Shown here: piece after piece, positions 40,044 to 42,982 of the stretch
Numbering within the stretch: position 1 is the stretch's first letter
Layout of the letters: each line of letters opens with the position of its first letter
Assembly (NCBI RefSeq): GCF_016862555.1
Contig: NZ_BONE01000021.1
Location: 1-64,000 of the forward strand
DNA from: Asanoa siamensis
GTDB lineage: Bacteria > Actinomycetota > Actinomycetes > Mycobacteriales > Micromonosporaceae
Direction: 5' to 3'
DNA length: 64,000 nt
Program-made: the position numbers and the translations under genes
Notes under the pieces: model-generated
Told to the model about the DNA's origin: nothing
Databases searched by the model: none
The model's input: the letters and a program-made list of their open reading frames with translations, nothing else

Positions 40044-40538
40044 ATGACCAACGTCGTTCCTGAGGGTTACCACACCATCACCCCGTGGCTCATCAACCGT
40101 GAGGCTGGAAAACTCATCGATTTCCTCGTCGCGGTCTTCGATGGCGACGAGATCGGCCGCATGGAGGTCGACGGCGCGATCGGGCACGCGGAGGTCCGCA
40201 TCGGCGACTCCGTCGTGATGCTCTTCGACAGCCGTCCACACTGGCCGGCGACACCCGGCTTCCTCCGGTTCTACGTGGCCGACGACGCCGAGGTGCTGCG
40301 CCGCGCGGTCGCCCGCGGCGCCACCGTCGTCACCGAGCCGACCGAGCTGTTCTTCGGCGACCGCGTCAGCCGGTTCCGGGACCCGTTCGGCAACCTCTAC
40401 TGGATCCACCAGCACCTCCTGGACCTGACGCCGGAACTGGCCGAGGAGCGGCTGGCGGATCCCCGGTTCAGCGCCGCGATGGACTACGTCCAGAGCGCCG
40501 AACTGTTGCCCACAGGGTTGCCCACTGCTCCGCGGTGA
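40044..40538 (+). CDS. VOC family (glyoxalase/PhnB-like) protein
   Basis: A 164-residue vicinal-oxygen-chelate fold protein. YHTITPWLINREAGKLIDFL and HAEVRIGDSVVMLFDSRP are PhnB-like; RVSRFRDPFGNLYWIHQH closes the second module. Such proteins bind metal or small hydrophobic compounds and include isomerases, dioxygenases and drug-binding proteins. TACGGT ends 7 nt before ATG 40044. Its last 71 bp are also the 3' end of the convergent erm gene, an unusually long overlap. Confidence 0.85.
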   Translation: MTNVVPEGYHTITPWLINREAGKLIDFLVAVFDGDEIGRMEVDGAIGHAEVRIGDSVVMLFDSRPHWPATPGFLRFYVADDAEVLRRAVARGATVVTEPTELFFGDRVSRFRDPFGNLYWIHQHLLDLTPELAEERLADPRFSAAMDYVQSAELLPTGLPTAPR

Positions 40539-41253
40539 GGTCGCGGGGCAGCGTGTTCGTGGGCAGGTTCTCCGCGCGCAGCCAGTCGCGGGCCAGGGGC
40601 GCCGGCACGCCCGCCGCGCGGGTCAGGATCTCGCGCAGGCCGTAGCCGCGGCCGGTGAAGACCGTGTGCACGAAACGCTGGTACGGCTCGCGTTCGGCGA
40701 CCAGCGGCGTCGGTCTGCGGCGGATCACCAGTAGGCCGCCGTCGACCGTCGGCACCGGCCGGAAGGCGCGTTTGGACACTCGCGAGTGGACACTGAAGTC
40801 GAACCAGGGCCACATCCGCGCGGTGAGCAGGCTGGCGCCGCCGATCGCCGCGCGGCGCCGGGCCACCTCCCACTGCACCAGCAGCACGGCGGTGCGCCAG
40901 TGGGGCGCCGCGAGCAACCAGCGCAGCGTCGCGGTGGTGATGTGGAACGGCACGTTGCCGACCACGACACCCGGCCGGCCGCGCAGCCGGTGGAACAGCA
41001 CGTCCTCGTTGAGGACGGTGACGTGCGAGGGCAGCTGATCGGCGAGGCGCTTGGCCCGGCGCGGGTCGATCTCGACGGCGGTGAGCGGCCGGCCCGACCG
41101 GCTCAACGGCCGGGTGAGCGCGCCGTCGCCCGGCCCGATCTCCAGGATCGGCCCGTCGGTGGCGTCGACGAGGCGCGCGATGTCGGCGATGACCGTCGCG
41201 TCGACGAGGAAGTTCTGGCCCAGCTCGTGGCGGCCGCCGTGATGGCGAGACAT
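40468..41253 (-). CDS. erm: Erm family 23S rRNA (adenine-N6)-methyltransferase
   Basis: A 261-residue SAM-dependent enzyme that methylates A2058 of 23S rRNA and gives macrolide-lincosamide-streptogramin B resistance. RHELGQNFLVD is the N-terminal Erm signature (as in ErmE and relatives), ILEIGPGDGALT binds SAM and NVPFHITTATLRWLL is catalytic motif IV. The RNA-binding C-terminal helices continue to the end. GGAG lies 7 nt before ATG 41253 and is paired in a hairpin. A 13-codon leader precedes it. The substrate base is inferred from family; the neighbouring genes are unrelated metabolism. Confidence 0.93.
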   Translation of the reverse strand: MSRHHGGRHELGQNFLVDATVIADIARLVDATDGPILEIGPGDGALTRPLSRSGRPLTAVEIDPRRAKRLADQLPSHVTVLNEDVLFHRLRGRPGVVVGNVPFHITTATLRWLLAAPHWRTAVLLVQWEVARRRAAIGGASLLTARMWPWFDFSVHSRVSKRAFRPVPTVDGGLLVIRRRPTPLVAEREPYQRFVHTVFTGRGYGLREILTRAAGVPAPLARDWLRAENLPTNTLPRDLTAEQWATLWATVRRSGRSPSRR

Positions 41254-41260
41254 GAGGGTG

Positions 41261-41359
41261 CTCCGCGAGGTTGGTGACGGAGCCGGGCAGCACGAGGGGC
41301 CGCACCGGCAGCGGACCGGTCGCGGCGGAGCTGAACAGGGAAAGTCGGATCAGCTCGCC
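41261..41359 (-). promoter_or_regulatory. Attenuator-type hairpins between leader and erm
   Basis: In the mRNA, GGCGAGCTGA (41359-41350) directly after the leader stop pairs with TCAGCTCCGCC (41334-41324), 10 bp with one bulge. Nearer to erm, CTCCG (41282-41278) pairs with CGGAG (41265-41261), which contains the erm ribosome binding site. Loops are 15 and 12 nt. Together with the leader this is the layout of translational attenuation in inducible erm genes. Confidence 0.65.
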
Positions 41360-41360
41360 G

Positions 41361-41402
41361 CTAGGCGATGCGGATCCGGATGAACAACGTGCCCATACCC
41401 AT
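41361..41402 (-). CDS. Leader peptide of erm (MGMGTLFIRIRIA), candidate ribosome-stalling peptide
   Basis: A 13-codon ORF starting 35 nt after the GntR gene stop and ending 107 nt before the erm ATG. Its residues align without gaps to the start of the ErmC leader (MGIFSIFVI): MG at the start, then Thr-Leu-Phe-Ile opposite Ser-Ile-Phe-Val, the macrolide-dependent stall core. The RIRI end recalls the Arg-rich stalling motifs of ErmD-type leaders. TACGTT ends exactly 6 nt before ATG, fitting a leaderless start, since no Shine-Dalgarno is visible. Stalling there would free the erm ribosome binding site from its hairpin. Confidence 0.7.
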   Translation of the reverse strand: MGMGTLFIRIRIA

Positions 41403-41408
41403 GCGTCG

Positions 41409-41414
41409 AACGTA
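41409..41414 (-). promoter_or_regulatory. -10 hexamer TACGTT of the erm leader
   Basis: On the minus strand TACGTT occupies -12 to -7 relative to the leader ATG. Upstream GGAAAA lies at the -35 distance (17 nt); an AT-rich patch in that place would fit WhiB7-type activation, but the match is too weak to claim. Confidence 0.5.
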
Positions 41415-41436
41415 CCAGCGGGGGCAACGCCTTTTC

Positions 41437-42108
41437 CTACAGCACGCGGCGCAGCCACTCCTCGACGCCGGCGATGTGCACGGTCGCCCAGGAGCGGGCC
41501 AGGTCGGGCTCGCGGCCGGAGATCGCGTCGACGATGGCCTGGTGCTGCTCGCGCGTGCGGGCGGCGGCGCCCTCCTGGGTCAGGCCGCGCCAGATGCGCG
41601 CCCGCATGGTCGGGCCGGAGAGCCCCTCGACCAGCGAGGCGAGCACCGTGTTGCCGGTGCCGACCGCGATCTGCCGGTGGAACTCGATGTCGTTGGCCAC
41701 CAGCGCCTCGATCGTCGGGTCGTCGCCCAGGTCGTCGAGGATGAGCTGGAGCTTGTCGATGTCGTCGTCGAGCATCCGCTCCGCGGCGAACGCGGCCGCC
41801 GCCGGCTCCAGCACCCGGCGCACCTCGAGGAACTGCAGCACCGTGTCGTCGCGGTGGAAGTCGACGACGAAGCTGAGCGCGTCGAGCAGCAGGGTGGGTT
41901 CGAGGCTCGTCACGTAGGTGCCGTCGCCCTGGCGCACGTCGAGCACGCGGATCATGGAGAGCGCCCGGACGGCCTCACGCAACGAGTTGCGGGACAGGCC
42001 CAGCCGCTCGGCGAGATCGGCCTCCTTCGGCAGCCGGGCACCCGGGCCCAGCTCCCCGGACATGATCATGCCCTTGATCTTGTCGATCGCCTCGTCGGTC
42101 AGTGCCAT
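41437..42108 (-). CDS. GntR/FadR subfamily transcriptional regulator
   Basis: A 223-residue regulator. The winged helix is ALTDEAIDKIKGMIMSGELG, then LPKEADLAERLGLSRNSLREAVRAL. The helical FCD ligand domain (about 85-215) contains FLEVRRVLEPAAAAFAAERM and HRQIAVGTGNTVLASLVEGL, with His/Asp positions typical of metal-assisted binding of sugar acids. It is the fifth gene of the deoxysugar operon, 25 bp after the lactonase-like gene. FadR-type proteins bind short palindromes such as the ACATCCGATGT sites found upstream of this operon. Confidence 0.9.
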   Translation of the reverse strand: MALTDEAIDKIKGMIMSGELGPGARLPKEADLAERLGLSRNSLREAVRALSMIRVLDVRQGDGTYVTSLEPTLLLDALSFVVDFHRDDTVLQFLEVRRVLEPAAAAFAAERMLDDDIDKLQLILDDLGDDPTIEALVANDIEFHRQIAVGTGNTVLASLVEGLSGPTMRARIWRGLTQEGAAARTREQHQAIVDAISGREPDLARSWATVHIAGVEEWLRRVL

Positions 42109-42133
42109 GTCCGCCCACCCTTCGCGATGAAAT

Positions 42134-42982
42134 CTACGCGGACAGGCGGTATGTGCGGGTCGCCGTGTCGCCCAGGATCGCCGCCCGTTCGGTCGCCGGC
42201 AGCTCACCGAGGGCGTCGAGGAGCGCCGCCCGGACGGTGCCGTAGTCACCGGCGAGCAGGCAGACCGGCCAGTCCGAGCCGAGCATCAGCCGCCGCGGGC
42301 CGAACAACTCGACCGCGCCGGCCACGTACGGACGCAGGTCGTCGACCGTCCACGCGGTCCAGTCGGCCTCGGTGGCCAGGCCGGAGACCTTGGCGGTGGC
42401 GTTGGGGCAGTCGGCCAGCGGCGCGATCGCCGCACGCCACTCGGCAAGCCCCTCGGCACCCGCCGTGATCCGCGGCTTGCCCAGGTGGTCGAGGACGAAC
42501 CGCACGTCGGGCAACGCGGCCGCCACCCGGGCCGCCGACGGCAACTGGTCGACCCGCACCACGAGGTCGAACGCGAGGCCCGCGGCCCCGATCGTGGCCA
42601 GGCCTTCCCGCACCTCCGCGCGATCAAGGTAGTCGGCCGACTCCCCCTGCACCTGGGATCGGATGCCGACGAGCCGCTCGCCACCCGGCAGCGCCCGATA
42701 GCCGGCGAGCGTCGCGGCGAGGTGCGGGTCGCAGGGATCGGCCCAGGCGACGACGCCGGCGATCTCCGGTGTGGCCGCGGCGTGGCCGAGCAGCACGGCC
42801 GCCTCGGCGGTGTCGCACCGGCCGCCCTCGACCAGCACCGAGCGCGCGACACCCGCGGCGGCGAGTTCGGCGGTCACCATGGCCGGCGTGAACGTCCGGT
42901 TGATCGGCTCGAGCCCGGGCTCGTCGAGCCAGGTGTAGCCGGCACCGGCGGCCCACAGGTGGTGGTGCGCGTCGACGATCAC
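42134..42982 (-). CDS. Amidohydrolase, probable L-fucono-1,5-lactonase
   Basis: A 282-residue TIM-barrel hydrolase of the amidohydrolase_2 family. IVDAHHHLW carries the N-terminal HxH, LDHLGKPRI and MLGSDWPVCLLAG are the later metal/catalytic segments. The family includes L-fuconolactonase and L-rhamnono-gamma-lactonase. Position between a sugar dehydrogenase and the regulator fits hydrolysis of the lactone made by the aldo/keto reductase. GTG 42982 overlaps the previous stop as GTGA. Confidence 0.85.
   Translation of the reverse strand: MIVDAHHHLWAAGAGYTWLDEPGLEPINRTFTPAMVTAELAAAGVARSVLVEGGRCDTAEAAVLLGHAAATPEIAGVVAWADPCDPHLAATLAGYRALPGGERLVGIRSQVQGESADYLDRAEVREGLATIGAAGLAFDLVVRVDQLPSAARVAAALPDVRFVLDHLGKPRITAGAEGLAEWRAAIAPLADCPNATAKVSGLATEADWTAWTVDDLRPYVAGAVELFGPRRLMLGSDWPVCLLAGDYGTVRAALLDALGELPATERAAILGDTATRTYRLSA

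Follow-up and report, generated by a model that had tools for sequence, protein, structure and literature searches.

A predicted leaderless Arg-X-Arg leader peptide and a likely RNA switch upstream of erm in Asanoa siamensis and other actinobacteria

The erm gene and its leader ORF

The window analysed here, the whole stretch of 64,000 nucleotides from Asanoa siamensis (contig NZ_BONE01000021.1, positions 1 to 64,000), carries on its minus strand an erm gene preceded by a short ORF. The following genes and leader features lie at this locus:

40468-41253, minus strand: erm, a 23S rRNA methyltransferase gene of the Erm(46)/Erm(38)/Erm(55) neighbourhood (NCBIfam)
41361-41402, minus strand: leader ORF MGMGTLFIRIRIA, 13 codons, with ATG at 41402 and a TAG stop
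41370-41378, minus strand: codons CGG ATC CGC of Arg9-Ile10-Arg11, the predicted stall site (+X+), from the conservation of R-X-R and the analogy with ErmDL
42108-41437, minus strand: gene for a GntR-type regulator, upstream of the leader ORF with a short gap between them

The erm product scored 259.9 bits against NCBIfam NF000499, above the curated threshold of 212 bits for this broad Erm family. The protein was nearest to Erm(46), Erm(38) and Erm(55), yet scored below the individual NCBIfam cut-off of each. The leader ORF is separated from erm by about 100 nt on the minus strand, and its reading of 13 codons from ATG(41402) to TAG(41361) agreed with that in a preliminary description of this DNA, which had proposed a leader peptide ahead of erm and an attenuator layout. 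That layout was conserved: erm and the upstream element were present in all six Asanoa genomes, the nearest named relatives being A. iriomotensis, A. hainanensis and A. ishikariensis (84-85% identity). When positions 40400-42600 were compared with Rfam, no match reached the gathering score, and two sub-threshold matches both lay away from the leader. At its 3' end, erm overlaps tail to tail, by 71 bp (40468-40538), a convergent plus-strand ORF at 40044-40538, which judged by eye has the appearance of a VOC/glyoxalase-type protein.

In the other Asanoa sequences, the leader read MGALNIRIRIA (L005 and L087), MGAMSIRIRLA (L007), MGAMSIRIRIA (L086) or TGALSIRIRLA (L006, A. hainanensis), and R-I-R-(I/L)-A was conserved throughout. 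The start position of the relatives aligned with the second ATG of the window ORF (41396-41394, Met3), where A. hainanensis has ACG. R-I-R and the RNA switch described below are intact in A. hainanensis despite this ACG; either another start is used there or the leader is untranslated.

More distant erm genes were preceded by leaders such as MCCFACFTRIRRS, MGCTCFMRLRRA, MGAFAAFFIRLRRA and MARTFTFRDRRA. We scored loci automatically for an ATG or GTG ORF of 8-27 codons in which R-X-R falls among the last six residues and which is preceded by TANNNT at a distance of 5-8 nt. From 101 loci fetched initially, paralogues from the same genome (L002-L004) and loci with the same ranges as L005-L007 (L085, L088 and L089) were left out, and distant, ErmE-like loci (L096-L101) were counted separately, leaving 89. 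The automatic test was passed by 84 of the 89 actinobacterial erm loci; dinucleotide shuffles yielded 0.10 passes per 89, the opposite strand none of 89 and a region farther upstream 1 of 89. Because the sets include near-identical relatives, these locus counts represent non-independent events. The loci that failed were L006 (ACG start), L024 (K-L-R), L056 (K-I-R), L036 and L074. Further, 24 of 29 loci passed in a class-wide sample that partly overlaps the set of 89. Because 84 of the 89 loci possess an R-X-R-ending ORF 5-8 nt after TANNNT, the leader is, as judged from its sequence, a member of the Arg-X-Arg (+X+, ErmD-type) class.

None of the six distant ErmE-like loci L096-L101 passed the test. 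In the class sample, L162, another distant ErmE-like erm, has an RIRR leader that failed the rule of the last six residues alone, and from this locus the leader type may reach into the distant ErmE-like group. The ORF of L162, MSCMFSCQVFIRIRRGRALAR, starts 7 nt after TANNNT.

For 87 loci, leader starts were picked by hand among in-frame starts, a choice on which the automatic count of 84/89 does not depend. These 87 leaders were selected for the motif and therefore provide evidence limited to codons and spacing. The codon of the first basic residue was AGG in 39, CGC in 26, CGG in 20 and AAG (Lys) in two leaders; the first Arg residue was thus kept while its codon varied, indicating selection on the peptide. 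The second Arg of the motif was encoded by CGC in 84 of the 87, a constancy that fits the double role of this codon as part of an RNA stem.

Promoter-like sequences and the start of the leader

Two sequences upstream of the leader ORF bear on the start of its transcript:

41409-41414, minus strand: TACGTT, a candidate -10 box (TANNNT) with a predicted function, separated from the first ATG by 6 nt
41422-41436 and neighbours, minus strand: GAAAAG-GCG-TTGCCC, a block resembling a WhiB7/WblC box plus a -35 element, 7 nt from the -10 candidate

TANNNT was located 5-8 nt ahead of the chosen leader start in 82 of the 87 loci, most commonly at a distance of 7. In four Asanoa relatives it lies 7 nt before the aligned ATG, and the corresponding Met3 ATG of the window sits 12 nt from TACGTT. 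The window sequence thus appears to have shifted, with an ATG back at the expected distance from the -10 candidate. According to PMC7157823, most WblC-dependent transcription in S. coelicolor starts 7-8 bp after TANNNT, and at these erm loci that position would accordingly be the ATG. This spacing suggests that the leader transcript is probably leaderless, starting at the leader's own ATG.

The WhiB7/WblC promoter motif is given in PMC7157823 as GAAAWY, 3 bp, TKGMNN, 16-19 bp and TANNNT; the window has the box-like block, but with a spacer of 7 instead of 16-19. Of 82 loci, 21 had an AAAW-N3-5-TKG box upstream, compared with 0.0024 per locus in shuffles, and the spacing of this box to the -10 candidate was 16-19 nt in 16 non-Asanoa loci and 7 nt in five Asanoa. 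By pattern, a WhiB7-like box was thus found in five of the six Asanoa sequences. A TTGCCC(C/G)CGCTG block is strongly conserved within Asanoa, with the box present in the window (41422-41436, minus strand), L005, L006, L086 and L087. Further, the genome encodes a WhiB7-like protein (G000:C14) with EPWGVWGG and RGRPRK, features of the type named as marks of WhiB7 in PMC10727445.

Translation might start elsewhere, either at an NTG codon three codons before R-I-R (41387, giving an 8-codon ORF) or at Met3, and we regard this as unlikely although worth weighing. An NTG codon (TTG, ATG or CTG) is present there in all six Asanoa, the ACG of A. hainanensis would then be irrelevant, and the ATG of the relatives aligns with Met3; on the other side stand the distance of 6 nt between TANNNT and the first ATG, that of 7 nt in four relatives and the same geometry across the family. 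Such an alternative start would alter the N-terminus of the leader peptide, not the switch.

Exclusive pairings between the leader and erm

The preliminary description had noted a 10-bp hairpin directly after the leader stop and a second hairpin joining CGGAG to CTCCG 12 nt upstream. Both were recovered, the former as CGGCG-AGCTGA..TCAGCT-C-CGCCG (helix 2:3) and the latter as GGCTCCG-12 nt-CGGAGC (helix 3':4). Beyond these, we identified helix 1:2, helix 3:4, the -10-like TACGTT and the start of the relatives at the second ATG. Folding of the untranslated stretch favoured the long-range helix 3:4 over 3':4. The segments are as follows, in the order of the transcript:

41364-41378, minus strand: segment 1, the final codons of the leader, forming the 5' arm of hairpin 1:2 (folds)
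41346-41361, minus strand: segment 2, of which 41359-41346 pairs with segment 1 and 41361-41350 with segment 3
41322-41334, minus strand: segment 3, TCAGCTCCGCCGC, which pairs with segment 2 or, via GCTCCGC (41331-41325), with segment 4
41298-41309, minus strand: segment 5, GCCGGTGCGGCC, forming the 5' arm of inner hairpin 5:6, which is conserved (alignment)
41282-41292, minus strand: segment 6, TGCTGCCCGGC, 3' arm of the inner hairpin 5:6 (alignment)
41278-41284, minus strand: segment 3', GGCTCCG, a second possible partner of the Shine-Dalgarno sequence, pairing in 92.3% of cells
41260-41266, minus strand: segment 4, GCGGAGC, holding the erm Shine-Dalgarno sequence GGAG at 41264-41261 (alignment and folds)

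For the structural alignment, 41 loci were listed first; L024, L039, L049, L054, L057, L068 and L071 were absent from the subsequent list of 34, and L020 was omitted for its short spacer, leaving 33 aligned sequences. The conserved blocks were segments 1, 2 and 3, the inner hairpin 5:6 and segment 4, and the erm Shine-Dalgarno sequence was GGAG in most loci. Pairing was retained in 90% of cells for helix 1:2, 97% for 3:4, 92% for 5:6 and 91.7% for the competing helix 2:3; as a control, sliding the 3' partners lowered helix pairing to 37-48%. Helix 2:3 showed changes on both sides in 4 of its 11 pairs (for example, U-A in 18, C-G in 9 and U-G in 3), and the covariation scores of helices 2:3 and 5:6 exceeded those of 500/500 shuffles and of all slid controls. 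RNAalifold, unaided, chose these same two helices. Inside the erm set, helix 3:4 showed no both-sided changes, and the covariation of helix 3':4 was not beyond that of shuffles (68/500 as high). The helices are mutually exclusive, and one of them hides the erm Shine-Dalgarno sequence. The ErmC attenuator has a four-segment logic, 1:2 plus 3:4 versus 2:3.

We folded the spacers with and without the ribosome-covered part to follow the opening of the Shine-Dalgarno sequence. With 25 nt of erm coding sequence added, opening across 87 loci did not differ significantly from shuffles (0.040 versus 0.024; p = 0.09). A crude measure of helix 2:3, which omitted part of segment 3, fell below shuffles (3.1 versus 7.1). 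In the same test, real spacers were more stable than their own shuffles in 87/87 loci. Folding of the untranslated stretch alone was chosen post hoc, after this null result. In that setting, the Shine-Dalgarno sequence of all six Asanoa was hidden in the free RNA (0.00 unpaired; probability of 3:4 at least 0.98), and when the leader and its stop codon were masked, helix 2:3 formed and the Shine-Dalgarno sequence was 0.11-0.72 unpaired, the window sequence opening least (0.11). The mean change of the six was +0.43, compared with -0.04 in shuffles, and shuffled spacers opened as far in 0-4 of 60 cases per sequence. Among the 33 loci, opening of the untranslated stretch was 0.189 versus 0.009 in shuffles (p = 2.8e-5); 21 sequences opened by more than 0.05, and 12 did not, one of which closed. 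With 40 nt of erm coding sequence, the value for the window Shine-Dalgarno sequence was 0.04 in the free state and 0.00-0.04 in the stalled state, and the results of the other Asanoa were mixed. We consider an RNA switch likely; it may release the Shine-Dalgarno sequence when the ribosome stalls.

Attenuation model, alternatives and related loci

Translational attenuation of erm and the Arg-X-Arg leader class are already known. From the computed features, namely the conserved ORF, its R-X-R, the -10-to-ATG distance and the exclusive pairings, we infer the transcription start, drug-dependent stalling, Shine-Dalgarno release and induction, and we consider it probable that the element attenuates erm as follows. 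Transcription would start at the leader's own ATG to produce a leaderless mRNA. Without drug, the ribosome would traverse the leader and depart, and the RNA would fold as 1:2 plus 3:4 with segment 4, the erm Shine-Dalgarno sequence, hidden. When a macrolide or ketolide is bound, the ribosome would stall on R9-I10-R11 (+X+), Ile10 occupying the P site and Arg11 the A site. It would cover segment 1 as far as the stop codon; segment 2 would then pair with segment 3, leaving segment 4 free for erm to be translated. Exactly two codons separate the second Arg from the stop codon in 80 of the 87 leaders and, counted from the first base of the codon in the P site, segment 2 therefore starts about 15 nt further on. 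If X occupies the P site, the stop codon ends about 15 nt beyond that same base, which is roughly where the front edge of a ribosome is located.

The placement of X in the P site and Arg in the A site is suggested by analogy with ErmDL, on which, in the presence of telithromycin, the ribosome is described as stopping when Leu7 occupies the P site and Arg8 the A site (PMC8298421). The same source describes the RLR motif of ErmDL as dispensable for erythromycin, which counts against the proposed mechanism.

The same leader and alternative helices might instead choose between termination and read-through, as in ABC-F genes, whiB7/wblC and ermK. Actinomycete ABC-F genes and whiB7 are described in such terms (PMC12421871, PMC10727445, PMC4128351), the element also precedes ABC-F genes (see below), and the GC-rich helix 5:6 could serve as a terminator stem. 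Such transcription attenuation nevertheless seems rather improbable here: a pattern search of 41200-41500 found no terminator-like hairpin with a T run, and segment 4 is the Shine-Dalgarno sequence itself, the pairing of which with segment 3 is so widely kept. Alternatively, any slowing on the Arg codons, many of them AGG, would open the switch, making the leader a general sensor of slow translation or of Arg-tRNA. AGG, so frequent at the first Arg, is generally rare in GC-rich actinobacteria, and among the 15 ABC-F leaders with this layout, eight carry K-P/L-W in place of R-X-R. WblC is also described as answering many drugs and amino-acid starvation (PMC12421871). We give this sensor little credence, since R-X-R is kept across differing codons, which a codon-based sensor would not need, and the neighbouring gene is erm.

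The preliminary description had instead compared the leader with ErmC, taking Thr-Leu-Phe-Ile, opposite Ser-Ile-Phe-Val, as conservative changes in the stall core, R-I-R as a tail and the combination as a hybrid stall motif. An ErmC-type or hybrid motif, for which the single Leu-Phe-Ile of the window peptide speaks, is very improbable and was rejected on conservation: TLFI is replaced in the five other Asanoa by ALNI (L005 and L087), ALSI (L006) or AMSI (L007 and L086), and IFV or IFI occurred in none of the 87 leaders. Comparison with close relatives, which had been suggested as a check on the peptide, bore out R-I-R and not TLFI. Because R-I-R is the conserved core and TLFI is not, the motif belongs to the Arg-X-Arg class instead of being a hybrid. 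A Phe two residues ahead of the first Arg occurs in 33 of 87 leaders; being so common across the wider actinobacterial family, it requires no kinship with ErmC. Finally, a chance ORF with chance hairpins, to which the modest fold of the window sequence alone might point (z of -1.87 versus shuffles; 5/200 shuffles as good), can practically be dismissed given the number of loci that pass the leader test relative to shuffles and the covariation of the helices.

Streptomyces erm attenuators exist, ermSF for example, and the leader of Corynebacterium erm(X) contains RLR. For erm(X), a leader peptide and erythromycin-inducible attenuation have been proposed, as at the present locus, but that gene is plasmid- or IS-borne (PMC3350403). 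The ErmD/ErmDL system of Bacillus is similar in its short Arg-X-Arg leader, the rRNA methyltransferase gene behind it and a refolding mRNA (PMC8298421). In contrast, the leader described here is predicted to be leaderless, there are five RNA segments, the host is a high-GC actinomycete, and R-X-R is fixed two codons before the stop with its codons forming one arm of the switch. ErmC/ErmCL shares the four-segment logic (mechanism in PMC10219788) but differs from the present element, which has no IFVI motif but an extra inner hairpin 5:6 and, in segment 3', a second anti-Shine-Dalgarno sequence. The whiB7/wblC attenuator and the WhiB7 regulon are alike in being actinobacterial with an antibiotic-responsive uORF, and 16 erm loci have the AAAW-TKG box at 16-19 nt from the -10 candidate; the whiB7 uORF of mycobacteria, in contrast, is described as having a Shine-Dalgarno sequence and a rho-independent terminator (PMC4128351). 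Control of ABC-F genes by uORFs is likewise a feature of lmrC, tiaA and are5sc in actinomycetes (MLV, MVGDDDISG). Those uORFs are characterised as short, led by a Shine-Dalgarno sequence, acting on transcription and subject to stalling by LSAP drugs while still at the start codon (PMC12421871), whereas the ABC-F leaders found here have 14-19 codons, are of leaderless type, are rich in Arg/Lys and fit the erm covariance model. In a literature search conducted mostly without subscription papers, we came across no description of erm leaders that are leaderless, nor of a single element common to erm and ABC-F genes.

A survey of 35 known erm genes and their homologues describes upstream ORFs as not universal and as having arisen independently (PMC11264731); in contrast, one large actinobacterial erm clade shows here one leader type and one RNA layout. 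uORF4u includes a search for Shine-Dalgarno sequences before upstream ORFs (PMC10219788), and if the leaders are leaderless, tools that seek such sequences may overlook them. The work on ErmDL calls the origin of the RLR circuit unknown and suggests producers of natural macrolides or ketolides (PMC8298421). That Arg-X-Arg leaders are standard in the sampled soil actinomycetes bears on this origin. Further, macrolide stalling of ribosomes started on leaderless mRNA becomes testable.

Of 354 genomes in the family, 61 contained the element as judged by a covariance model (E <= 0.001 per genome); in a phylum sample the model found it in 3 of 396, one of which was the genome studied here and one a partial match; because of this low number, the model appears tuned to this part of the phylum. 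Among the best 30 of the 67 family matches, which were examined (the remaining 37 were weaker and several were partial), 12 preceded erm, 15 ABC-F genes, two MFS transporter genes and one a GNAT acetyltransferase gene. The non-erm loci (L114-L131) were full-length matches to the model, for example, L116:1631-3130, L117:44-1420(-) and L114:1620-2099. All 18 had an ORF that starts 6-7 nt after TANNNT and has an Arg/Lys-rich end, the promoter and start lying outside the model. Of the 15 ABC-F leaders, seven contained R-X-R and eight K-P-W or K-L-W.

In an alignment of 22 loci fitted to the model, and thus leaning towards it, helix 3:4 showed both-sided changes in 4 of 7 pairs (for example, C-G to U-A in seven sequences and G-C to U-A in eight), with 27 both-sided cells compared with 10.6 in shuffles. 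We tentatively suggest, at somewhat short of even confidence, that a leaderless cassette of about 150 nt (promoter, start, Arg-X-Arg sensor and switch) is an old shared element of Actinobacteria that controls an erm clade and was also joined to unrelated genes of resistance to ribosome-targeting drugs (ABC-F, MFS efflux and GNAT), with the sensor changed to K-P/L-W in part of the ABC-F group and the switch kept. If so, the drug-stalled ribosomes would be ones that had begun on leaderless mRNA.

The leaders of L023, L027, L065, L076 and L153 are strikingly rich in Cys and Ala before R-X-R (for example, MSACSCACAACACAACAAMTRIRRP), which hints that a second signal might be read there.
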